From assembly GCA_019359435.1 (NCBI GenBank), contig JAHHHI010000090.1, forward strand, positions 1 to 64,000: a DNA stretch of 64,000 bases, in the 5' to 3' direction. The notes beneath the pieces are model-generated. The model had not been told where the DNA came from. It saw only the letters and a program-made list of their open reading frames with translations, and did not search any database. Below, piece by piece: positions 1 to 52,003 of the stretch (positions are counted from its first letter, which is position 1; the number at the start of each line of letters is the position of its first letter). A program made the translations under genes and the position numbers. Source of the DNA: Kaiparowitsia implicata GSE-PSE-MK54-09C (lineage in GTDB: Bacteria > Cyanobacteriota > Cyanobacteriia > Elainellales > Elainellaceae).

Positions 1-120
1 TCGCTTCATTGCAAACTGGATGTGAGCAGTTGACGCACAAAATGAATGGGTTCATCTGCCCACTGGTACGTCGGTTGAACTTACAATTGATCTTTTCATC
101 TGCTTAGAGTGATAGAAGAG

Positions 121-372
121 GGGTATATAAGTAGCACCAGTAGATGCTGGATAACCCCGGAAGCGAGAGTATTATCCAGCACATTCGACGGATAAGCACC
201 CCATTCTCCAGAATTAACCATCAGATCTGCCGGATAACACCCCGAAACTTTGGTCTTATCTAGCAAATATTCTATTTAATTCCTTAAAAACTGGGTATTA
301 TCCCGTAGATGCGCTGGATAATGCTGGAAAGGTAGGGTCTTATCTAGCAAATCTGACACTTAATACATAGTT
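121..372. repeat. Tandem array of ~42 bp imperfect palindromes (6 units)
   Basis: Six degenerate units start near 121, 164, 206, 248, 291 and 331, spaced 40-43 bp. The left arm resembles GGGTATTATCCAGCA and the right arm TGCYGGATAACACCCC, and the two arms are complementary, so each unit can fold into a hairpin of about 35 nt separated by A-rich spacers. No ORF crosses it. A related array lies at 15043-15285. It differs from CRISPR because there are no unique spacers and the units are degenerate. Confidence 0.7.
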
Positions 373-474
373 GGGCTGCTTAAGTTGTCTGTGAGGACGG
401 TACTTTCAGCTTTTTAGTGAGAGTTCAATTTCTCGTAACTGAAGAACAATCACAATATATAGTTTAAGAGCAAT

Positions 475-954
475 TTAAAGCGCATCCTCTATAGACATCT
501 GTCTTTCGATGCTGGGTAGCGGTCTAACATCAATGTAGTCTTGGGCAAACTTCTTAAGCCCTACATCCTCGCTATAAATGCACTTTGCGCCTCTTGCTAT
601 CGCTGTAGCAGCAATCATGAAATCAGCTTTCATTTCTGCTTTTGATATTCCACTCTCATCTTTAAGTTGCTTTTTGTTTCTCCACAGCTCTGCAAAATGA
701 AGAGCAGCTTGTGTATCAAAGGGTGGAACGATAAATCGGCGATGCATCAGTTCACTGAAAGCATTATGCAAACCTGGCTCTAAAGCACACAGAATTTCTG
801 CAACAACCATTGACGGAATCATAATATCAATTCCATCTTTTTCGCAAGTGCTGATTAAATATTTAGCTTTGTCTATGTTGTATTCCTGTCCAGGAGTTGC
901 TTGCCTTTTAATACCCCAAATAATTATCTGTGTATCAAAACAAACTAGATCCAT
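475..954 (-). CDS. PIN-domain ribonuclease, VapC-like toxin candidate
   Basis: A 159-residue protein with the PIN-domain acidic set: D7 in the first strand (VCFDT), E53 in VVAEIL, D111 in KADFMIAATA and D130 in IYSEDVGL. PIN proteins of this size are typically Mg2+-dependent RNases and many are toxins of type II toxin-antitoxin systems. Its start codon directly abuts the stop codon of the upstream gene (955-1740), so the two are almost certainly cotranscribed and that neighbour is the obvious partner. The toxin role is inferred from family and context; the partner is larger than a usual VapB antitoxin. Confidence 0.8.
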   Translation of the reverse strand: MDLVCFDTQIIIWGIKRQATPGQEYNIDKAKYLISTCEKDGIDIMIPSMVVAEILCALEPGLHNAFSELMHRRFIVPPFDTQAALHFAELWRNKKQLKDESGISKAEMKADFMIAATAIARGAKCIYSEDVGLKKFAQDYIDVRPLPSIERQMSIEDAL

Positions 955-1740
955 TTACGCCTCCGACAGTCCGTAGCGTATTTCGGAGACAAAACGATCC
1001 ACATCTTTTATGTTGTCAAATGAATCTCCAATTAAGTTAGCTAATTCTTCAAAAGCTTCTGATGGCGAAGTTTGCTCGTAATCAGAAATGTCGATTACGT
1101 GAAAGTTTTCAATTTCAAACGTTTCAGAATTCCATTCTGCAAGACCACGCAACTCTACATTTGTGTAAAGCTTAGCACCTGCTTTCTTAGCTATTGCCTT
1201 ACTTGTACTACAATAAATAATTTGACTGTCCAAAGTCTTAAATTGAATTTTAGGTTCTGCCCCACCCACACGAGTTATTTCTCCATGTATGGTTGTCTCC
1301 CCTGACAATGGATAAATATCAGGTATCTGAGTTTCAGGAGTAAGGACAGCTAATGATTCCGATCTGCCATTCTGGGTAAAGAACTCAGCATTACATTGGT
1401 AGCGTCGTGTAAAAGCAGATAGTTTCCTCAGAGAATTGATAGTACCACTTGGTAGTACACCAAAATCATTCTCTGCAATTGATTTTGTTATACGACGTGT
1501 GGCAGGCAGAGTTAACTCCGCCAAATTTGGGGAAAACTCTAAACCAATACTTCCTTGTCGAATACTCTTTAAGCCAATTACTATAGTCTCTTTCTTTAAC
1601 TCTGGGTGGTCACGAATCACCATAGAGGCTATCATATCTTCAACAGATTCGATGACTTCCGCGATCTCCTTAGATCGAATTTTGCCTGGTGACATACCTT
1701 CACCAGTCAGCAATATTTCTACTGTTACATCGTGAGCCAT
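955..1740 (-). CDS. Uncharacterised protein paired with the PIN protein
   Basis: I do not recognise a family for this ~261-residue protein. The start chosen is the ATG at 1740 (MAHDVTVEILL), with a purine-rich GGTGGTGAG just upstream; a longer frame to 1791 is less likely. The N-terminal half is mixed alpha/beta. The C-terminal third (residues about 160-230) looks like a small beta barrel, followed by an acidic helical tail. It is translationally coupled to the PIN gene: its TAA is immediately followed by the PIN ATG. It may be an antitoxin or substrate-recruiting partner; this rests only on the coupling. Confidence 0.7.
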   Translation of the reverse strand: MAHDVTVEILLTGEGMSPGKIRSKEIAEVIESVEDMIASMVIRDHPELKKETIVIGLKSIRQGSIGLEFSPNLAELTLPATRRITKSIAENDFGVLPSGTINSLRKLSAFTRRYQCNAEFFTQNGRSESLAVLTPETQIPDIYPLSGETTIHGEITRVGGAEPKIQFKTLDSQIIYCSTSKAIAKKAGAKLYTNVELRGLAEWNSETFEIENFHVIDISDYEQTSPSEAFEELANLIGDSFDNIKDVDRFVSEIRYGLSEA

Positions 1741-1865
1741 AAATGATCTCACCACCTTCGAGCATAAGAAGATCCTATAATTATATCGCAATTGAGAACG
1801 AAGATAGCTGCTATTTCAGTTTTTTTTCAACTAACTCGCACAAGTCATAGTGCTGTGAGTTTCTA

Positions 1866-1954
1866 ACAGCCCAACAATGCGTTGGTGCGGACGGAATGGA
1901 GATTGTTGGCAGGTAGCTTTTGATACCTGCCGCCGCACAACTTCACCGTTCTTG
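1866..1954 (+). other. attC-like hairpin site A1
   Basis: The left box GCCCAAC (about 1869) fits the integron R'' pattern RYYYAAC. The arm GTTGgTGCGGaCGG at 1881-1894 pairs with CCGCCGCACAAC at 1930-1941, leaving two unpaired bases (g and a) like the extrahelical bases of attC sites. The centre adds a perfect 8-bp stem, GGCAGGTA/TACCTGCC. The right box (CGTTCTTG) is degenerate. The fold is direct sequence evidence; the attC assignment is inference. Confidence 0.5.
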
Positions 1955-2058
1955 CTTCTTCCTGGATTGGGGCTATACAGAGAGATTATCGGTCAAGTGC
2001 GAATGTTAAACCTGCACCTGACACACTAGGAGAGCGATCGCTGTGACTTCTTATCAGG

Positions 2059-2241
2059 ATTGACCTTTCAGATAGCCAGTTTGAAAAGCTACAAAATTTG
2101 GCGGTAGTGCATGGAATTGCGCTCGAGGTTCTATTGAAGACAAGCTTAGAGGATTAGCTCAATTCCCAAAAGAGTGAGTTCGTTGATGCTGCCGATCATG
2201 TGTTGACAAAAAATGCTGAGTTGTATAAACGTCTAGCATGA
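2059..2241 (+). pseudogene. Antitoxin remnant of a Doc-type toxin-antitoxin pair
   Basis: The frame reads DSQFEKLQNLAVVHGIALEV and, after an in-frame TAG at 2155-2157, ends ...VLTKNAELYKRLA at a TGA (2239-2241). The AELYKRLA tail is typical of cyanobacterial antitoxins encoded just before death-on-curing toxins. No ATG precedes the conserved part; an ATT stands where a start would be expected. The stop overlaps the ATG of the following doc fragment, keeping the ancestral operon layout. Missing start plus internal stop indicate decay. Confidence 0.6.
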
Positions 2242-2342
2242 TGCGTTTTCTAACATTAATTGAGGTGTTAGAACTACATCGTAGAATCATTGAGCAATCT
2301 GGTGGAGCATTTGGCATCCGAGAGGTCGGGGTATTGGAGTGA
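2241..2342 (+). pseudogene. Truncated death-on-curing (Doc/Fic-fold) toxin
   Basis: A 33-codon frame starts MRFLTLIEVLELHRRIIEQS and continues GGAFGIREVGVLE before a TGA. This matches the N-terminus of Doc toxins, which are normally about 120-130 residues. The catalytic Fic motif (HxFx[DN]GN[KR]) is absent, so the product cannot be an active AMP-transferase or EF-Tu kinase. The end falls at a GCGATCGC palindrome and is followed by an unrelated NmrA fragment, suggesting a deletion or rearrangement junction. Confidence 0.65.
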
Positions 2343-2373
2343 GCGATCGCTCACATTATTTGAGAACAGTCCA

Positions 2374-2514
2374 ATGATTTTAGTGACTGGAGCAACGGGG
2401 AACAACGGTACAGAGGTTGTCAAGCGAGTCGTAGCGCAAAACGTGCCAGTCTGGGCAATGCTTCGCAATCGGGAGCGAGCCAGTGCGATCGCACAAACAA
2501 CAATTACGGCATAA
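2374..2514 (+). pseudogene. N-terminal fragment of an NmrA/SDR-type NAD(P)-binding protein
   Basis: The frame begins MILVTGATGNNGTEVVKRVV, a clear Rossmann-fold dinucleotide-binding motif (GATGxxG), and continues to WAMLRNRERA, typical of NmrA-like proteins of about 280-300 residues. Only 46 residues remain before a stop. The rest of the domain is missing and the sequence runs into the MazE-like gene, so this is a truncated relic. Confidence 0.6.
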
Positions 2515-2542
2515 AATTAAGGCATGGTTTCGTGCAACGGAT

Positions 2543-2746
2543 ATGCTAAAAACGCTTTGGGCTACGGTTCGGCAGGGAAAAATTGAACTATTGGAGTCAG
2601 CAGAACTACCAGAAGGGGTAAAGGTTCTGGTGACAGTTTTACCTGACAACGAGGCTGAGTTTTGGCTACAAGCCAGTCAAACGTCGCTTGATGCAGTTTG
2701 GGACAACGCTGAGGATGATATATATGCCCAGCTACTCCAAGCATGA
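2543..2746 (+). CDS. MazE/AF2212-like antitoxin
   Basis: A 67-residue acidic protein (MLKTLWATVRQGKIELLE...) of the type encoded next to MazF/PemK toxins in cyanobacteria. The N-terminal part (to about residue 37) forms the small beta segment with LPEGVKVLVTVLP; the C-terminal part, rich in D, E and W (AVWDNAEDDIYAQLLQA), is the likely toxin-binding tail. The start is the ATG at 2543, where homology begins, rather than the longer frame from 2483. It overlaps the toxin gene by 23 nt. Neutralisation of the MazF homologue is inferred. Confidence 0.75.
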   Translation: MLKTLWATVRQGKIELLESAELPEGVKVLVTVLPDNEAEFWLQASQTSLDAVWDNAEDDIYAQLLQA

Positions 2747-3053
2747 CGTTATTTTGGTGCGCTATCCCTTCTCAGATTTATCGAGCTCAAAGGTAAGACC
2801 TGCTGTTGTTGTGAGTACGTCGCACCCATCTCAAGATATTCTCATTACCCCTTTGACCAGCAAAACAGGTTCATTACTGGTAGGGGAGTTTGTGCTATCT
2901 GAGTGGGTAGCCGCCGGATTGAACGTAGCTACCGCAGTCAAAAGAGGTGTATATACAGTGCATGAAAGTTTAGTCATTAAAGTGATTGGTCAGTTGGTCA
3001 AGGTTGATGCCGAGCAACTTGAGCAATCTTTGCGAGGTTGGCTAGGTTTATAG
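2724..3053 (+). CDS. MazF/PemK-family endoribonuclease toxin
   Basis: A 109-residue protein starting MPSYSKHDVILVRYPFSD, followed by KVRPAVVVST and ILITPLTSKTG, the standard PemK/MazF core (SH3-like barrel with the RP.VV motif). Length is normal for the family and the frame is intact. MazF proteins cut RNA at short sequence motifs; this one should be held by the upstream overlapping antitoxin. The ATG at 2724 is chosen because MazF homology begins there. An attC-like site starts 15 nt after the stop codon, so the pair sits where a gene cassette would. Confidence 0.85.
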   Translation: MPSYSKHDVILVRYPFSDLSSSKVRPAVVVSTSHPSQDILITPLTSKTGSLLVGEFVLSEWVAAGLNVATAVKRGVYTVHESLVIKVIGQLVKVDAEQLEQSLRGWLGL

Positions 3054-3067
3054 AGTCAACAGCTACA

Positions 3068-3154
3068 GCCCAACACTGCGTTGGTGCGGACGGAACAGTG
3101 GCTATCTGTGAGAGTTGTCAGGTTATCTGCAGCCGCTCAACCGGAGCGTTAGCC
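3068..3154 (+). other. attC-like hairpin site A2 behind mazF
   Basis: Left box GCCCAAC (3068-3074) and right box GTTAGCC (3148-3154) are nearly complementary at the ends. Inside, GTTGgTGCGG (3080-3089) pairs with CCGCTCAAC (3133-3141), with one unpaired G and one mismatch. Length is 87 bp and it lies 15 nt after the mazF stop, as expected for an integron cassette. Confidence 0.6.
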
Positions 3155-3192
3155 TGTTCTAAAGCAGTTCTTTTTGCGCCGTTGTAGCCATG

Positions 3193-4221
3193 TCAAGCCA
3201 TTTGCCAAGTCATGTCTTGACCTGCTTGCAACGGTACCAGTGCAGATTCCACAAATGGAACTTCATTGGGAACGCGCCAGGTTGTTTTGGTCAACGTAAT
3301 GTGTTCAGTATTGCGTGGAAGTTGATAAAAATCCGGCCCATAGTAGCTGGCGAACGCTTCAAGTTTATCAAGGGCATCAACACTCTCAAACGCTTCTGCA
3401 TACAACTCCATCGCATGCAGAGCCGAATAGCAACCTGCGCAACCACAGGAACTTTCTTTGCTATTGCGAGGATGGGGGGCGCTATCGGTGCCTAGAAAAA
3501 ACTTAGGATTACCCGAGGTTGCTGCTTGCAACAGAGCGGAGCGATGCTCCTCTCGTTTCAAAATGGGCAGGCAATAAAAATGGGGAGAAATGCCACCCTG
3601 AAACAGGCTATTGCGATTAAATAACAAATGTTGTGGCGTGATGGTTGCAGCGATGTTGTTGGTAGATAGGACATACTGCACCGCCTCCAAGGTTGTAATG
3701 TGTTCAAAAACGACGCGCAAGCCGGGAAATCGTTGCTTGAGGGGAATCAAATGGCGCTCGATAAACACCTTCTCGCGATCGAACATATCAACACTGTGAT
3801 CGGTCACTTCGCCGTGCAAAAGTAACGGCAAGTCTTCCTGCTGCATCGCTTCAAAGGTGCGATCGCACTTGCGAAGTTCCGTCACCCCAAGGTCTGAATT
3901 GGTTGTGGCCCCGGCTGGATAGTACTTGACCGCTTTGACAAACTGAGAGGCTTTCGCCGCGATGATTTCTTCGGGGCTGGTGTTGTCGGTGAGGTAGAGC
4001 GTCATCAGTGGCTCGAACTGTTGACCCTCTGGAACTGCTGCCAGGATGCGATCGCGGTAGGCTGCTGCATCCGCGACCAAGCGTACTGGCGGCTTCAAAT
4101 TTGGCATGATAATCGCGCGGGCAAACTGACGCACCGTATGCGGCAGAACCGCTTTCAATGCCGCGCCATCCCGTAGATGGAGGTGCCAGTCATCCGGTCG
4201 GGTAATCGTGAGCGTTTGCAT
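3193..4221 (-). CDS. pyrC: Dihydroorotase, class II (pyrimidine synthesis)
   Basis: A 342-residue amidohydrolase that interconverts N-carbamoyl-L-aspartate and L-dihydroorotate, the third step of UMP synthesis. The metal ligands are visible: H13 and H15 (WHLHLRD), the lysine expected to be carboxylated, K99 ([13 protein letters not shown]), histidines in LLHGE and VFEHITT, and the aspartate of [10 protein letters not shown]. Length matches the E. coli-type enzyme. Both flanks carry attC-like sites oriented on the opposite strand, an odd setting for a housekeeping gene; nothing in the protein looks degraded. Confidence 0.95.
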
Positions 4222-4261
4222 GCTTCAATTATAAAATCGCTAGTGCTTTAGAAAAATACGC

Positions 4262-4352
4262 GCTAACAACGCCCACGCACACCGACCGCCGAAAGTTTGT
4301 CGGTTGTGGTGATGCAGAGGTTGTCTGCGGCGGGTGAACGGAAGCGTTATGC
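4262..4352 (+). other. attC-like hairpin site A3 upstream of pyrC
   Basis: Ends are GCTAAC (4262-4267) and GTTATGC (4346-4352). An inner arm CACC...CCGCCG at 4280-4291 pairs with CGGCGGGTG at 4328-4336, with a small bulge. Size (91 bp), orientation and layout match A1 and A2. It lies 40 bp upstream of the pyrC start, on the opposite strand. Confidence 0.5.
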
Positions 4353-6901: not shown

Positions 6902-7000
6902 GGGCACCTCGAAAAATCCAGATTTTCCTGGGAGTGGCAACGTGTTTTCAGGGGTTTCAGCCCTCCAGAATCTCCGTAAGGGCAATTAATCGAGGCGTCC
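6902..7000. mobile_element. 99-bp MITE-like element, copy 1
   Basis: Begins GGGCACCTCGA and ends TCGAGGCGTCC. It is nearly identical over its whole length to 14759-14857, whose right end TCGAGGTGCCC is the exact inverse of this left end. No coding capacity. Two copies with inverted ends support a small non-autonomous mobile element. Confidence 0.6.
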
Positions 7001-11902: not shown

Positions 11903-12013
11903 CTGCTTTCTTGATCAGGACTTATACATTGACTCGAACCACCTGAGTGATGGGGCGATGCAGCATGTTAAGTGATGTATCAATTGAGTTATCTAATCTT
12001 ACGTCAGTTCGGG

Positions 12014-12772
12014 TTAAGCAGAAACAGGCAAAGCGGTATCCATGAGCAGAGAAGGCTTCTTGGGTTGGTGGGAGTCGGCGATCAGTCGGCAGACTCAGTT
12101 GACCAAGCAGTTGAGCGGAGAACGATGACGCGAATGCTCAATCTGAGAACTGTTGTTGAGCTGGTCGATCACAGATTCAATCACCGCTCGTCGGCGCAGC
12201 AATAGCTTATCAGCCAGCCCCATCAGACGGGTCTTCCTGTTTCGTGTGAGCTTGGTGAACAGTGGGATGCCAGAGTTCTGCCAGAGCTGGAGGGCGAGTT
12301 TTTGGGAAACATAGCCTCGGTCGCCAAACACCTTCCCGAAGAGTCGTTGGAGGAGTTGAGGTCGAGGCTTACGGTCATCGGTATGACCGTCGGTATGACC
12401 GGGAGTCAACTGGACGTTGAGGAGTTCCCCTCGCTCATGGATGACCAAGTGCAACGTGAAGCCAAAGAACCAGTCTACGGAGGTGTTGCCTCGAGCCGCT
12501 AAGGGGTTGAATACTCTGTGGGAGGCAATCCGACGATTGTGGCAGACCTTGATGCGGGTCGCATCACTGAAGCTGAGACCCGTACACGTGCCAAAGCACT
12601 GCCGCAACTAGGCCCATACCGGGATGAGAGTCGCGGGTATCCATTCGACAACGCGGTTGTAGCTGACCAACCCTGAAAAGGCTTTACGCCAATAGCGACC
12701 AACCAATTGAGTATAAACCCACTTGAACTTGCGGTAGGCCGACTGATGGAAGGCAATCACAAGCGTCATCAT
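12014..12772 (-). pseudogene. IS982-family transposase, inactivated
   Basis: The minus-strand frame starts MMTLVIAFHQSAYRKFKWVY and runs through KVCHNRRIASHRVF, GFTLHLVIHERGELLNVQL, LFGKVFGDRGYVSQKLALQ and QIEHSRHRSPLNCLVN to HQPKKPSL, the IS982 pattern. It is broken by a TAG near 12605 and a TGA at 12092-12094, and carries a 12-bp tandem duplication giving PGHTDGHTDDRKP. The left end keeps ACGTCAGTTCGGGTTAAG (12001-12018), the IS end also seen in elements at 17507 and 51875. No matching right end is visible past 12772. Confidence 0.8.
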
Positions 12773-12854
12773 TTCGCTTCAGCACAGGCGACGCGACCGC
12801 GGCCGCATCTGTAGGCCGTCCCCTAACAGTGGCTGCAGAAGGGGTCTACCCCAG

Positions 12855-13025
12855 TTGATTGGGGATTGAAAGAAATGATGATTTCACCTGTCGATGTTGG
12901 GGATGAGTGAGTTTCAGTTGGTGCATTACGCTATGCCAACACATCCTACGAAAGCGGCGATCGCACTCAAATACGAGACTCAAAAGGTTTTCTGCGCCAC
13001 TCAAGGCTTGCTACAGCGGCTAACG
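12855..13025. repeat. ~170-bp repeat, copy A
   Basis: Nearly identical to 13841-14010 in the same orientation. Both copies run from TTGATTGGGGATTGAAAG to GCTACAGCGGCTAACG, and each ends inside the R' box of an attC-like site on the minus strand. Similarity may begin up to 25 bp further left. It includes a GCGATCGC site and a segment with partial inverted symmetry. No ORF. Confidence 0.8.
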
Positions 13026-13104
13026 TTCCGGTTGAGCGGCTACCAATAATCTCCGCCGCAACATTGACCAACCTTGCAAGTCCGCTCCAACCGGGTGGTT
13101 ATGC
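13018..13104 (-). other. attC-like hairpin site A4 behind the DUF4926 gene
   Basis: On the minus strand the left box is GCATAAC (13104-13098), three bases after the stop codon of the DUF4926 gene, and the right box is GTTAGCC (13024-13018). The inner arm GGTTGgAGCGGaCT pairs exactly with AGCCGCTCAACC except for two unpaired bases, g and a, matching the extrahelical-base layout of integron attC sites. This is the best-formed of the five. Confidence 0.65.
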
Positions 13105-13107
13105 CAC

Positions 13108-13350
13108 TTACACCGTGACTGCTTCAGGCGTTGTTTCCGGTGACGCTGGCTCAAACCGCAAAACCATGATTTGCTCTGGACGTAACCCCACAGATTCGTA
13201 AGTGCGTCCGTCACGATCACTGAATTCAACTTCAAATGCTGTGCCATTCGCCAACGTCTCAACCACTGTACCAACTTGTCCACGCCACAAATTGTATTGG
13301 GGAAGATCAACCGTCAAGGCTACAACATCCAGTAACTTAGCATTACTCAT
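13108..13350 (-). CDS. DUF4926 domain protein
   Basis: An 80-residue protein (MSNAKLLDVVALTVDLPQYN...) with the DUF4926 pattern GQVGTVVETL...FEVEFSDRDGRTYE, a small beta fold. Such proteins are common in cyanobacteria beside DUF6883 proteins and are suspected toxin-antitoxin partners; no activity is established here. GGAGG lies about ten bases before the ATG. It is the second gene of a pair, 21 bp after the DUF6883 gene, and its stop is followed by an attC-like site, so the pair looks like one cassette. Confidence 0.85.
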   Translation of the reverse strand: MSNAKLLDVVALTVDLPQYNLWRGQVGTVVETLANGTAFEVEFSDRDGRTYESVGLRPEQIMVLRFEPASPETTPEAVTV

Positions 13351-13371
13351 TCGCTCAATACCTCCACTGAA

Positions 13372-13704
13372 CTACAAAGGGTAGCAGGTCGTTAATCTTG
13401 GCGTCTCTGAATCATGCTCGATGATCCAACCACTCCGAAGGGTTGCACTTCTATTTTGCCATTCGATTATGAAGTCTAAGGTGTAGCGTTGCCCAAACTC
13501 ATCTTGTCTTCCTAACTGTGCTTCGTGAGTTTTGACGACTTCAAGCAGAATTTGGCGCAACTTCTCAGCATCGCTAGCTGCCATACCCAAAATTGATGAA
13601 AAGAGCCGAGCTTTATGCTTTCCGTCATCATGCTCTGGATTAAGACAGTAGTCTCGCAGTTTACGAATATCAACAACCGCTTGCTCAGCGTTTGGAACCA
13701 GCAT
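13372..13704 (-). CDS. DUF6883 domain protein
   Basis: A 110-residue protein beginning MLVPNAEQAVVDIRKLRDYC, followed by HKARLFSSILGM, matching DUF6883 proteins. The conserved features are the initial LVPNAE motif, the DYCLNPEHDDGKHKA segment and a C-terminal beta part (TLDFIIEW...LRSGWIIE). It is cotranscribed with the DUF4926 gene. The biochemical role is unknown; a toxin or immunity function is suggested only by its constant small neighbour and its placement among toxin-antitoxin genes. Confidence 0.8.
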   Translation of the reverse strand: MLVPNAEQAVVDIRKLRDYCLNPEHDDGKHKARLFSSILGMAASDAEKLRQILLEVVKTHEAQLGRQDEFGQRYTLDFIIEWQNRSATLRSGWIIEHDSETPRLTTCYPL

Positions 13705-13840
13705 TCAAAATTATTTCTCGTTAAAAACCAATATCTCAAAAATTAACTAAAAGGTCATTCAGATTACAGGAAGAAGAGTAGTACCAACCAAAATGCTACT
13801 ACTAGTTTTGGTCGGTATGTGGCAGAAAGGGTTTATCTGA

Positions 13841-14010
13841 TTGATTGGGGATTGAAAGAAATGATGATTTCACCTGTCGATGTTGGGGATGAGTGAGTTT
13901 CAGTTGATGCGTTAGCTGCGCTAACACATTCTACGAAAGCGGCGATCGCATTCAAATACGAGACTCAAAAGGTTTTCTGCGCCACTCAAGGCTTGCTACA
14001 GCGGCTAACG
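13841..14010. repeat. ~170-bp repeat, copy B
   Basis: Second copy of the sequence at 12855-13025. The most divergent stretch is near 13905-13930, where this copy reads TGCGTTAGCTGCGCTAAC, an inverted repeat that is degenerate in copy A. It ends in the R' box of attC-like site A5, so each attC-like site here is followed on the minus strand by the same sequence. Confidence 0.8.
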
Positions 14011-14090
14011 GTAAAGCTCAACGGACGCAAATAACTTTTACTACTTCAATAGCCAACCTGATACGTTCCGGTGCAGCATAATTGTTATGC
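14003..14090 (-). other. attC-like hairpin site A5
   Basis: Minus-strand left box GCATAAC (14090-14084) and right box GTTAGCC (14009-14003). The arm GCTgCACCGGaACG (14077-14064) pairs with CGTCCGTTGAGC (14027-14016), leaving two unpaired bases and one mismatch. It begins about 30 bases after the stop of the gene at 14121-14720. It also contains the palindrome GCAGCATAA/TTATGCTGC. Confidence 0.6.
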
Positions 14091-14120
14091 TGCTACAATT
14101 CACCTACTAATACAAGTAAG

Positions 14121-14720
14121 CTACCTTCCTAGCCAAATTTCAATATACCCAGGTTTAGCAGTAGAATCTTGATAAAAGTTAGCTCTGACAGCCTGGTTCA
14201 ACAATTGAGATTGTACAAATTCGGCAATTATTTCAGCTTGCTCCCTATCTGTTGAGTTGAAATATCTAACTTCAGGTTCGTTTGGTCGTTCTGGATCATC
14301 GAGTTGCCTTGAGCCAACTATATTGAAACCTGCTTTTATCAACTCGGAACTTAATTCATTAAATGCTCTGGTTCTCTCGTTTGTTCCTGCAAGTAGAAAG
14401 ATCCTAGCATTTTCAACAATTGGGCTTCTCAGTATGGGTAATTGTTCAGGATTCTCAGCTAGTCTACGTATCTTTGAGCTATCCAAACTCTGAAGAACAC
14501 CAGAATCAACTAGAAACAATAGTTGCTTTGCAGCTTCTTGGTTATCCGATGTTTCTAAAGCCTTTTGAATTAGCGCAAATTCAAACTTTTGCCTTTCTAG
14601 CTGAGAGCTCCAATAGCCTTGTAGACTTACTCCAATCCCTGTCCCAATTAAACCAGATATTATGGTTAAGACTCCTATTAGTAATGAAGCTTTTTTGCTT
14701 TCAGTGTTCTTTTGAACCAT
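14121..14720 (-). CDS. Membrane-anchored protein with LytR_C/SPOR-like end
   Basis: A 199-residue protein. One membrane helix (about residues 11-33, ASLLIGVLTIISGLIGTGIG) is followed by a charged coiled coil (QLERQKFEFALIQKALE) and a C-terminal alpha/beta domain from about 103 (ARIFLLAGTNERTRAFNELS...GFNIVGSRQLDDPE...AEIIAEFVQSQL...YIEIWLG) resembling the LytR_C fold. The resemblance is from pattern only. Codon use is more AT-rich than in the neighbouring core genes. The gene is followed by attC-like site A5, so it reads as a gene-cassette cargo of unknown function. Confidence 0.7.
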   Translation of the reverse strand: MVQKNTESKKASLLIGVLTIISGLIGTGIGVSLQGYWSSQLERQKFEFALIQKALETSDNQEAAKQLLFLVDSGVLQSLDSSKIRRLAENPEQLPILRSPIVENARIFLLAGTNERTRAFNELSSELIKAGFNIVGSRQLDDPERPNEPEVRYFNSTDREQAEIIAEFVQSQLLNQAVRANFYQDSTAKPGYIEIWLGR

Positions 14721-14758
14721 ACTTCTCGTACCTTGTCAAAAAATACTGCCTCAGCATA

Positions 14759-14857
14759 GGTCACCTCGAAAAATCCAGATTTTCCTAGGAGTGACAACGT
14801 GTTTTCAGGGGCTTCAGCCCTCCAGAATCTCCGCAAGGGCAATTAATCGAGGTGCCC
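14759..14857. mobile_element. 99-bp MITE-like element, copy 2
   Basis: Near-identical to 6902-7000. The right end TCGAGGTGCCC is an exact inverse of the GGGCACCTCGA left end of copy 1; here the left end has one change (GGTCACCTCGA). It lies just upstream of the membrane-protein gene at 14720, close enough to affect its promoter. Confidence 0.6.
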
Positions 14858-15042
14858 CATAGAAATAAATAATTCCAGCACTTGGCTGAGCATTTGTTTG
14901 GTGAGCACTTTTTATCCATCTCTCCTGCATCTCATCTCAAAGAGATTGGCATACTTAATGTCTTGACACGTCTCTATTATAAATTTGCAGCATAATTACT
15001 GTTTATGCTGACTCCCTTTCCTAAATTCCGTCTAACATCCCA

Positions 15043-15285
15043 CAGCAGGGTAGTTAGCCAGAATCAAAGTTTCATATCACCTCTTCTGGAGGGAGTTATA
15101 CCGAATACTATCCGCATAACCACCCAAATTGGAGTGTTATGCTGAACTCTGTCGGGCTATCTACCAGAATTCGGGTGTTATGCCGAACGAGATCGTGATA
15201 ATTACTCTCATAGAGGTGTTTAGCCGGATCTTGCTCTGTATAGTATGTCTACTGAGGGTTGCTATGCCGATAGCTTCAACAAATC
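15043..15285. repeat. Second tandem array of ~41 bp imperfect palindromes
   Basis: Units start near 15043, 15086, 15131, 15172, 15213 and 15254 at about 41-bp spacing. The left arm reads like GGGTGTTATGCCGAAC and the right arm is AT-rich with ATC/TAC near the end. The left arm resembles that of the array at 121-372 (GGGTRTTATSC), so they are probably one repeat family. The rest of the spacer 14858-15597 shows no convincing gene. Confidence 0.6.
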
Positions 15286-15597
15286 TTTATCTCTAGTGAA
15301 AATATAAGTATTTTCCTCTACAGAATGTAGAGGAAAATACTTGTTTTCTTTGATCGTTTGGTTTATTCTTTGCGATACCGGAATCTGATTTCGGTGATAA
15401 CTGACATGCGCGCTTGGGGTTTTGGGCGCTGATTAGGAGTGCTGGACACACTCACTAACCAGCTGACCTGACTCCTGAAGTGGGCAGGAGCCAGGCTTTG
15501 ATGATTATCAAGCGCCTCGCGAATGCTGACAAGTGGTTGGGTCAACCACGTCCCCAGGCGCGTTTCCTCTACAACACGCATTAGCGAGGCAAAACCC

Positions 15598-15813
15598 ATG
15601 AGTTCTGAGATTAAGGCGTTGGTGCGATCGCACCAGGGCGACAGCAATGCGCAAATTTGGATCATCGGCACGCGGGATCAGGTGATCCACTTAATGAACG
15701 AGCTGTATGTGAAAAAGGTAGCGACGGATCGAGCGCAGTTTACGCCGATTATCCCTGCGCCGTTTATCGACGGGCAGTATATGACGGTGTTGGTGCGATC
15801 GCCCCGCGCATAG
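15598..15813 (+). CDS. Small conserved-looking hypothetical protein
   Basis: A 71-residue frame beginning MSSEIKALVRSHQGDSNAQI and continuing IWIIGTRDQVIHLMNELYVKK, then FTPIIPAPFIDGQYMTVLVR. The composition and predicted alpha/beta pattern look like a real small soluble protein, and codon use matches the genome. I do not recognise the family. The start is the ATG at 15598, which stands at the end of a spacer; a longer frame to 15523 has no better support. No operon partner is apparent. Confidence 0.5.
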   Translation: MSSEIKALVRSHQGDSNAQIWIIGTRDQVIHLMNELYVKKVATDRAQFTPIIPAPFIDGQYMTVLVRSPRA

Positions 15814-15892
15814 TTCATCATTCAGCCAGAGCGGAGCATTGAGCGGGATATCGCGAAGGCGCACAACTCGTCTCAATGCTTTACCGCTGCCC

Positions 15893-17278
15893 TCAAACCC
15901 CCAACACCTTGCCCCGCAGCCCCGCAGGCAGGTCTAGACCTGCCCAGTTCAGCAGCGTTGGCAAAAAGTCGTAAATCTGTACATCTTCTAGCACTTGCCC
16001 CTGCTTGGGACGCTTTGGGTCATGAAAGATCATCAGCCCGTATTGGGCATGGTTGGCATCATCTGGCCCAGTGTCGTTATCCACAGTGTGCAGACCGCCG
16101 CCCACCGTCCCAACCGATCGCCAAGCCAGTTCATCAAAATACGCAATCAAGTCTGGCGCAATGCCGCGCACCTTTTTATACACCTGCTGGGGCGTATAGA
16201 CCTTGTTGTTGAGCGGTTTGCCCGCCGGGTCAGGAATCGCCTCCAACAGCTCAATCAGTTCCGCCCGCGTCTGCTCATACTCCCCCATCGGCACAATGCC
16301 CTGGGGTTCGCGTCCCTGCACATTCACAAACACGCGCCCATAGTAGCCGCCTGCGCCCCAGGCTTTGGTGCGGCTCCAGTCCACCTCCACCTCGTCGAGG
16401 GGTGTGGCCTCAGTGGGCGTCTCTTTCAGCGTTAACAGGCCGGCCTGCATCAGCCATTGGTTAATGCAGATGCCGCCGAGCAGCGGACGTGCCCCGTGGT
16501 CTGACACGACCAGCACCGCAGTCTCATCACTGCACTGCGCCAGCAACTCACCCACGCGCCCGTCCACATGGCAATAGTAATCGTGAATGGCGTTGGCAAA
16601 GGGCGACCCCGGTTCATGTTGAGGATGGCTCGGGTCCATCGGCTTCCAAAACGAGTGATGGATGCGATCCACACCCATATCGACCAGCATCAAAAAGTCG
16701 GGTGAGTCTTGGGCGATGATCTGTGCGGCTAAGGTAAACCGCTGGTCGCACAGGGTATAGATATTGTCTAGAATGCGGGCTTTGTCGTCAGAGCGAAAGT
16801 GGGGTACATCCAGCAAAAAGTCGGGCATCCACGCCTGAATTTGGGCGGCGAGTTCGGGGGGATGGGTGTAGGGCACGTCGGTGCTAGGCGTGAGAAAGCA
16901 GGACACCATTGAGCCGTTGACGGGACTGGGGGGAAAGGTGCCTGGTACGCTCAGCGCAGCAACCCGCCAGCCTGCATCGCCCAGATAGTCCCATAGGCGC
17001 GGAAAACGGACGGAACTGCTGTTGGCGATCGCCATCTGTTGATAGTCACGATTCACCCGATTGCGAAAGCCATAGATCCCCAACTCACCCGGGTCGCGCC
17101 CACTCATCATGCAGCTCCACGCTGGCACCGTAATCGCGGGAATACTGCTCTCCATTTTGCCGTAGCTGCCTTGCGCCATCAGCCGTGACAGATTGGGCAA
17201 ATCATCCCGCCAGCGGTTAAACACCAGCGATGGTTCCATGCAATCTAGCCCAATAATCACCAAGCGGGGAGAAGCCAT
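15893..17278 (-). CDS. Type I phosphodiesterase/nucleotide pyrophosphatase family protein
   Basis: A 461-residue member of the alkaline phosphatase superfamily. The N-terminal motif VIIGLDCMEPSLV gives the first metal-binding aspartate; the nucleophile segment is TVPAWSCMMSGRDPGELGIYG, with a threonine aligned to the family nucleophile. Later metal sites are DMGVDRIHHSFW and VVSDHGARPLLGG. No signal peptide, so it is probably cytoplasmic. The family hydrolyses phosphodiesters or pyrophosphates; the substrate here is unknown. Its gene is in the same orientation as lgt and the sulfatase-family gene, separated from lgt by a 311-bp spacer. Confidence 0.85.
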   Translation of the reverse strand: MASPRLVIIGLDCMEPSLVFNRWRDDLPNLSRLMAQGSYGKMESSIPAITVPAWSCMMSGRDPGELGIYGFRNRVNRDYQQMAIANSSSVRFPRLWDYLGDAGWRVAALSVPGTFPPSPVNGSMVSCFLTPSTDVPYTHPPELAAQIQAWMPDFLLDVPHFRSDDKARILDNIYTLCDQRFTLAAQIIAQDSPDFLMLVDMGVDRIHHSFWKPMDPSHPQHEPGSPFANAIHDYYCHVDGRVGELLAQCSDETAVLVVSDHGARPLLGGICINQWLMQAGLLTLKETPTEATPLDEVEVDWSRTKAWGAGGYYGRVFVNVQGREPQGIVPMGEYEQTRAELIELLEAIPDPAGKPLNNKVYTPQQVYKKVRGIAPDLIAYFDELAWRSVGTVGGGLHTVDNDTGPDDANHAQYGLMIFHDPKRPKQGQVLEDVQIYDFLPTLLNWAGLDLPAGLRGKVLGV

Positions 17279-17589
17279 AGGGGGGTGCTCATGCCGTCAC
17301 CCTGACTGTATCAGGTCTGCCGTCAGGTGCCATCGATCTAAGGTCAAGGTGGGTTCATTAGCGTTATTTCAGCTCTACGCTACGGGGCTGACGCAACGTA
17401 AACTCATTTTGCCCGCATTATAGGCAGAACGGGTTTATCTGTTTGTCAAACCCCTAAGAAACAAATCCATGCGCAAGGCGAAAGCCCTTGGTGGTCAGAC
17501 TTTTTTTAACGTCAGTTCGGGGTAAGAGGGTTTTGGGGCATCGTGCGTCGCGCGATGCCCCAAAACCCTCAACGTGCTGTATTTAGCCG
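17279..17589. other. Spacer with IS982-like end and long hairpin
   Basis: This 311-bp spacer holds the promoter region of the phosphodiesterase gene on its left and the IS982-end/hairpin element at 17507-17568 on its right. I see no gene in it. Confidence 0.5.
17507..17568. mobile_element. IS982-derived end followed by a 16-bp stem hairpin
   Basis: TTAACGTCAGTTCGGGGTAAG (first 20 bases from 17507) matches the end of the IS982 relic at 12001. It is followed by a perfect inverted repeat, GGGTTTTGGGGCATCG (17528) with CGATGCCCCAAAACCC (17553). The hairpin lies about 20 nt after the lgt stop and could end lgt transcription. A related, longer copy is at 51875-52003. Confidence 0.5.
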
Positions 17590-51874: not shown

Positions 51875-52003
51875 TTAACGTCAGTTCGGGTTAAGGGGGT
51901 TTTGGGGCACCGCGCGACGCGCGGTGCCCCAAAACCCTCAATGTGCCGTGCGCACCGCGCACGGCACATTGAGGGTTTGAGCTTATCCCGAACTCAGGTT
52001 AAG
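51875..52003. mobile_element. IS982-derived MITE with two hairpins
   Basis: Left end TTAACGTCAGTTCGGGTTAA and right end CTTATCCCGAACTCAGGTTA are inverted copies of the IS982-type end seen at 12001. Inside are two hairpins: GGGTTTTGGGGCACCGCG with its inverse, and CAATGTGCCGTGCG with CGCACGGCACATTG. No ORF. A solitary right-type end lies at 52103-52131. Confidence 0.65.

Follow-up and report, generated by a model that had tools for sequence, protein, structure and literature searches.

Two minus-strand sites in the window, by which we mean the whole 64,000-nucleotide stretch of DNA analysed, almost certainly belong, as attC sites, to a chromosomal integron from which the integrase is gone. The window opens contig C97 of a 6.72-Mb draft genome in 109 contigs (estimated completeness 99.92%, contamination 4.41%), which was compared with 59 relatives in a set of 60 genomes, 36 of them belonging to the window's family. 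Positions 13018-14720 of the minus strand hold three genes and the two sites: A5 (14003-14090) lies 30 bases beyond an open reading frame (14121-14720), and the DUF6883 and DUF4926 genes are followed by A4 (13018-13104), which begins 3 bases after the end of the DUF4926 frame (13108-13350, stop included). Each site is thereby on the strand of its gene and directly downstream of it, at the distances given in an earlier, sequence-only reading of this DNA. The array comprises cassette 1 (about 14009-14996; a LytR_C-like gene and A5) and cassette 2 (13024-14008; a leader, DUF6883, DUF4926 and A4), and it sits to the left of an attI region, on the strand opposite to the former intI side. Measured against a complete integron, attI is present at the array head and a functional intI is absent. 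The claim of two minus-strand attC cassettes stood as regards the attC identity of the sites and recurrence elsewhere; it needed correcting on two points, the folding energy of A5, which lends no support, and the cassette of A4, which is not clean: it includes an extra leader, and this leader comes again after A4.

The recognition of A4 and A5 relied on R1, a covariance model built from 16 attC-like sites of the same genome, all at loci carrying an element that we call E and none from the window. In the 64-kb window R1 produced five matches at E <= 10, of which A4 and A5 were the best two and the only ones on the minus strand: A4 scored 61.0 bits (E 2e-14) and A5 60.7 bits (E 2.5e-14), both held out from the model, with E-values that are rough, the seeds coming from the same genome as the window. 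Both sites have the attC hallmarks, namely R'' and R' boxes ending AAC...GTT and L'' and L' arms with extrahelical bases, and crossover is expected on the minus strand between 13024 and 13023 in A4 (G^TTAGCC) and between 14009 and 14008 in A5. The arms of A4 pair over 7 + 5 bp with two extrahelical bases, just as the sequence-only reading had it (12 bp, perfect save for two bases), and 2 of the 21 model pairs are non-standard. Its judgement that A5 pairs nearly as well was too generous, for 5 of the 21 model pairs there are non-standard and the minimum-energy fold differs from that of an attC. On folding, the proposal that the two hairpins would be hard to obtain by chance came through in part: the predicted DNA fold of A4 is the attC fold with a mildly unusual energy (z -1.49, 16 of 200 shuffles as stable), while the energy of A5 is unexceptional (z +0.34, 127 of 200). 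Folding alone is insufficient to reveal either site as attC, and what lifts both beyond chance is their fit to a model of sequence plus structure, at a rough E of about 2e-14. The support for A5 is its sequence-plus-structure similarity, its position and its junction, and folding energy contributes none of it. The stem interiors of the two sites differ, and what they have in common is the R' side and the 186-188 bp beyond it, which are 93% identical; that they differ except near the R' box had been correctly noticed, and the shared stretch beyond is an addition to it.

The seeds of R1 are themselves a varied family, with a mean column identity of 64% across the 16 sites and with compensated pairs. 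They were chosen for stem complementarity, and therefore pairing itself is no test, so it was to the pattern of changes that we looked. Doubly changed cells in the attC stem numbered 68, against 25.0 in shuffles and 11-19 when the partner was slid, and a covariation score also stood out from its controls; two others of the five measures of covariation were ordinary, in that 14 pairs carried a double change, against 12.0 (matched by 52 of 500 shuffles), and there were 31 further pair types, against 27.9 (matched by 77 of 500). All 16 seeds are found upstream of E and on the strand opposite to it; this concordance is not wholly independent, because orientation was set by a conserved internal motif with the position of E in view. 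Across the whole of its own genome R1 found at least 75 matches at E <= 1 and at least 70 at E <= 1.1e-5, on 29 contigs, counts that are lower bounds because 150 of 1877 first-look candidates were scored. Matches at E <= 1e-4 were present in 57 of the 60 genomes, with at most 74 candidates scored per genome, and none was found among the candidates so scored in G036, G045 and G049. The choice of a covariance model followed from the shortcomings of a home-made attC finder, which missed A4 when it required 6 of 7 R''/R' matches and, when loosened, ranked A4 top with a score of 25 (ten shuffles reached at most 23), gave 23-24 to palindromes that are not attC, and missed A5. Rfam had nothing in the window at gathering thresholds, and a relaxed search of 12800-15900 returned seven sub-threshold matches only.

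Evidence that these arrays were assembled from circles was obtained from the cassette ends. Closure of a cassette circle at G^TT predicts that the outer arm of its attC resembles the start of that cassette and not the start of the neighbour. Of 109 R1 rows, 106, from 31 loci in two genomes, yielded 58 testable pairs, i.e., sites on the same strand, less than 4 kb apart and with AAC and GTT cores present. Scored over eight nucleotides, agreement was 6.0 with the cassette's own start, 3.79 with the neighbour's and 3.91 with shuffled starts; the own start was the better in 47 pairs and the neighbour's in 3, with 8 ties (p 1.9e-11). As a group, then, the 58 pairs fit circular cassettes, as predicted. 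Read by eye, the outer arm of A5 matches the cassette start at the attI junction in 7 of 8 bases, and at the left end of the window, where a second array lies, A1 reaches the same 7 of 8 (also by eye) against the start that adjoins the left attI, and A3 reaches 5 of 8. A2 (3 of 8) is absent from the 58 pairs because the site preceding it has a degenerate core, and the outer arm of A4 matches the present start of its cassette in 2 of 8 bases because an extra leader precedes its genes.

The attI region at the head of the minus-strand array (14993-15290, type 1), into whose left end, near 14996, the cassettes were inserted, has four further copies in the same genome, at 89-91% identity, and four in a complete genome, G002, at 81-84% identity, these last beside intI remnants. 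The copies agree up to AAACAGTAG and then abruptly diverge into different cassettes; the base at the crossover is A in the window and G in the four other copies. At locus L105 of G002 an intI remnant comes after the type-1 region, and in the window E follows directly, from which we infer that intI has been lost; all five type-1 copies in the window's genome join E without intI. Established integron biology supplies the rest of a plausible history: IntI would have bound the folded single strand of attC and cut it at G^TT, and would have inserted circular cassettes at attI, after which the intI gene between attI and E would have been deleted and an IS would have truncated the far end of the array, leaving the cassettes stranded unless IntI were supplied in trans. 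Altogether the genome has about 15 attI-like platforms, with four checked types. Type 1 has five copies, like the G002 regions; type 2 has four copies in addition to the left end of the window, with 72-78% similarity to DNA that in G011 lies 52 bases ahead of an intact intI; type 3 has three copies, one placed by eye, of which two are 75-80% similar to DNA immediately ahead of an intact intI in G013; and type 4 has two copies, beside intI fragments. A fifth group upstream of E, with three copies, is a candidate attI, and four E copies are without such a region. Platforms were sought upstream of E, so those without E would be missed by this count. As for the integrase itself, a family cut-off of 265 bits was exceeded in 26 of the 60 genomes, so that relatives carry apparently complete integrases.

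A rival reading is that these sites are simply dispersed palindromic repeats of the REP or MITE-like kind that follow genes by coincidence. The window does contain such repeats, a palindrome of 75 bp (at 17506 and 51875) and a repeat of 99 bp (at 6902 and 14759), and the unremarkable folding energy of A5 would suit one. We find the idea scarcely credible, however, for the sites score as attC, follow genes and vary with compensated changes at 64% mean column identity where a dispersed repeat would be present as near-identical copies, and the arrays begin at attI regions and have outer arms that, as a group, match their own cassette starts. The sequence-only reading had named just this outcome, no attC score and identical copies of one repeat, as the one that would sink it, and the data went the other way. 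It is also very improbable that the sites are free-standing attC sites inserted at secondary positions, in other words a CALIN (cluster of attC lacking integron integrase) with no attI at any time in its past. CALINs are common (PMC9668308), and there is no intI here; against this stand the five copies of the same attI type in the genome and their 81-84% homologues beside the intI remnants of G002.

That the array might still be active, with an intact IntI hidden in unassembled or collapsed repeats, gains something from the draft state of the genome, its 109 contigs and the several platforms at contig ends. We nonetheless regard it as improbable, since no intact intI was found in 6.72 Mb estimated to be 99.92% complete (integron integrase fragments at three loci, on C85, C7 and C104, are all under the family cut-off, the best at 156.8 bits), which makes present activity unlikely, and since the direct joining of type-1 attI to E holds in five copies out of five. 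An integron without its integrase stays by far the preferred explanation of A4 and A5; the points that speak against it are the folding energy of A5, the poor match of A4's outer arm, the A at the attI crossover, the lack of an intact intI in the genome, the foreign DUF6883 loci with a weak attC match or none, and the two ordinary covariation measures.

Cassette 2 provides a view of the same cargo in other genera. Its genes encode an 80-aa DUF4926 protein (13108-13350, minus strand; Pfam PF16277, E 5.9e-28) and a 110-aa DUF6883 protein (13372-13704, minus strand; PF21814, E 3.5e-29), and the pair may be toxin-antitoxin-like or a similar two-gene cargo, a predicted role. DUF6883 is present in 29 of the 60 genomes, and close copies (78-86% identical) occur at seven loci in six other genomes, with an eighth locus, L143, split in two. 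By R1, an attC lies 270-276 bp after DUF6883 in L164 (63.9 bits), L143 (54.5), L141 (33.7) and, weakly, L137 (19.4), and no R1 attC was found there in L136, L138, L139 and L140, so that the eight close foreign loci divide into three with a downstream attC above 30 bits, one weak and four with none. In an alignment of nine loci the homology spans the start of DUF6883 to the stop of DUF4926, no homology is evident upstream of DUF6883, and BLAST matches also begin at the gene start. At L164, in another genus, the same gene pair is accompanied by an attC homologous to A4, and the similarity stops at GTTAGC, the R' crossover. The search for the same cassettes at other loci, suggested by the sequence-only reading, was thus rewarded in the case of the DUF6883-DUF4926 pair, with unrelated DNA upstream of it and an attC in L164.

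The leader that complicates this cassette is the stretch common to the two sites. Copy 1 (13824-14009, minus strand) comes directly after the A5 crossover and is 93% identical to copy 2 (12837-13024, minus strand), which comes directly after the A4 crossover and ends at the IS. There is no other full-length copy in the genome, and none beyond the window's two in 40 genomes with at most 20 first-look candidates scored in each. The leader would be a gene-poor or truncated cassette present twice, copy 1 having been fused before the DUF6883 genes and copy 2 cut by the IS. Parts of it, 47-71 bp long, occur at 11 places in G043 (including C1:1303499-1303569), one of them 17 bases from an attC. The IS (12001-12836, minus strand) has a putative transposase, with a DDE_Tnp_1_3 match (PF13612) in the frame 12095-12607, and an 836-bp copy of it, 98.7% identical, is on contig C1. 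That copy, at locus L133 (383-1218), is 8 bases from an attC (290-374), and both copies of the IS that were found adjoin cassette DNA.

The gene of cassette 1 (14121-14720, minus strand; 199 aa) encodes a protein with an N-terminal hydrophobic helix, as judged by eye; the LytR_C label attached to it is weak, its Pfam match (E 0.072) reaching 14.5 bits against a cut-off of 22.2. An AlphaFold model was of low confidence (pLDDT 67.9), a fold search of the PDB with this model had no match at E <= 0.001, and sequence searches of the PDB with this protein and with the E protein returned matches only at E >= 0.2. Among the 59 other genomes the gene had one weak match (29% identity), so recurrence elsewhere was not found for this cassette. 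Within cassette 1 there is also a 99-bp repeat (14759-14857), 93% identical to 6902-7000, whose ends are roughly inverted (GGGCACCTCGA at the left of the copy at 6902-7000, TCGAGGTGCCC at the right of that at 14759-14857).

Beyond the attI region lies the element E, which is about 0.5 kb long (about 15330-15813, plus strand) and is present in 22 copies on 22 contigs of the genome. It has a leader (15330-15597, boundaries approximate) with a putative promoter, predicted structure and two hypervariable hairpin loops, the -35 and -10 boxes and the leader pairing having been read by eye, and an ORF of 71 aa (15598-15813) from a family of 66-71 aa. The leader is nearly invariant save mainly for the two loops, the 22 copies having 16 different sequences in one loop and 19 in the other, and 21 different pairs; the 14 copies of G002, of which two were read with a looser pattern, have 7 and 9 distinct sequences. 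A GCGAGG before the start codon is predicted, again from reading, to be able to pair with a CCTCGC earlier in the leader. In 18 of the genome's copies of the ORF, pairwise single-change codon differences were 1404 synonymous to 161 non-synonymous, in pairs that are not independent. The protein had no match in Pfam, NCBIfam or PHROGs, its AlphaFold model was of low confidence (pLDDT 66.8), and E had no plasmid match. The protein is encoded in 23 of the 60 genomes, all within the 36 of the window's family, with up to 61 copies in one.

E is often found just downstream of intI, an intI remnant or attI. In G002, 6 of the 14 E copies have an attC array within 9 kb upstream on the opposite strand (random mean 0.24, reached in 0 of 5000 runs), one has a same-strand attC upstream and none has any attC downstream. 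In the window's genome 11 of the 22 copies have such an opposite-strand array within 9 kb upstream, 5 have none and the 6 others have less than 3 kb of contig upstream; seen from the attC side, 27 of 70 sites are on the opposite strand within 9 kb upstream of E and 43 are elsewhere, one of these within 9 kb downstream. Of 18 intI loci examined in relatives, 8 carry E, six in G002, one in G009 and one in G030; E is missing from 10 of the 12 intI loci taken from the integrase search of the 60 genomes, some of these 10 being from E-less genomes or having short flanks. G001 has 57 attC matches and no E, and G030 has 61 copies of E and 28 attC matches. The link between E and integrons is, therefore, not obligatory. 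It is conceivable, and we consider it a long shot, that E is part of the reason why platforms are dispersed in many copies in this cyanobacterial family: E might be a separate RNA-plus-miniprotein unit, with its own promoter, two hypervariable loops of 6-8 nt and a Shine-Dalgarno sequence that can be paired away, that regulates or mobilises attI-intI platforms, its loops serving as addresses for a trans-acting partner. If true, E would be a new companion of integrons. The loops were also considered as insertion guides and discarded as such, the 200- and 500-nt flanks of a copy's own locus and those of other copies differing little and in no consistent direction.

Integrons are on record in Cyanobacteria (PMC8352920, PMC8618304, PMC9668308 and PMC2426708), a cyanobacterial attC model exists (PMC8352920), CALINs are described as mobilisable by IntI in trans (PMC9668308 and PMC12444791), and more than one intI per genome, as well as intI pseudogenes, have been reported (PMC2426708); the intI-less integron of the window is therefore of a known kind. 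It resembles the sedentary chromosomal integrons of cyanobacteria in its attC plan, its cassettes of short genes and an attI that in relatives has a divergent intI, and differs from them in that intI has been lost and the genome holds many attI-like platforms. With CALINs, as described in PMC9668308 and PMC12444791, it shares attC arrays without intI, but its own array still has a recognisable attI at the head. Several platforms and broken integrases in one genome are likewise familiar from PMC2426708, which names genomes with two intI genes; the present genome has some 15 attI-like sites, of four checked types, and fragments of intI at three loci. What is unusual is the number of dispersed platforms and their tie to E. 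A search of the open-access literature produced no description of a cyanobacterial genome with many integron platforms, nor was E found in it, an element that has no name to search by. The analysis shows that sites picked out by eye are true attC sites, and that own-start matches together with attI junctions can establish the identity of cassettes where there is no integrase. With its many relics of integron platforms the genome is a dense fossil record, in which one may ask how platforms multiply when integrons themselves are described as immobile (PMC12444791), and E, which is multi-copy, linked to these platforms and without a family-library match, may merit separate study.

The second array occupies the left end of the window (1-4352) in the opposite, plus, orientation. 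It begins at a type-2 attI (127-345) that faces right and is 86-90% identical to those of L042, L053 and L054 and 78% identical to that of L041, and it contains three attC sites, A1 (1869-1955; 43.1 bits), A2 (3068-3154; 43.8 bits) and A3 (4261-4352; 48.8 bits), a PIN-domain gene and a MazF/PemK-like gene. Between A2 and A3, in reverse orientation, is a dihydroorotase gene (pyrC, TIGR00856; 3193-4221, minus strand), which is normally a housekeeping gene. The two copies of the 75-bp palindromic repeat (17506-17580 and 51875-51949) are 89% identical, and similar copies are present in L039 and L053. In G002, a complete genome, a pair of attC arrays run towards each other, head to head, at C1:5198735-5213089, and the nearest E found is about 40 kb away.
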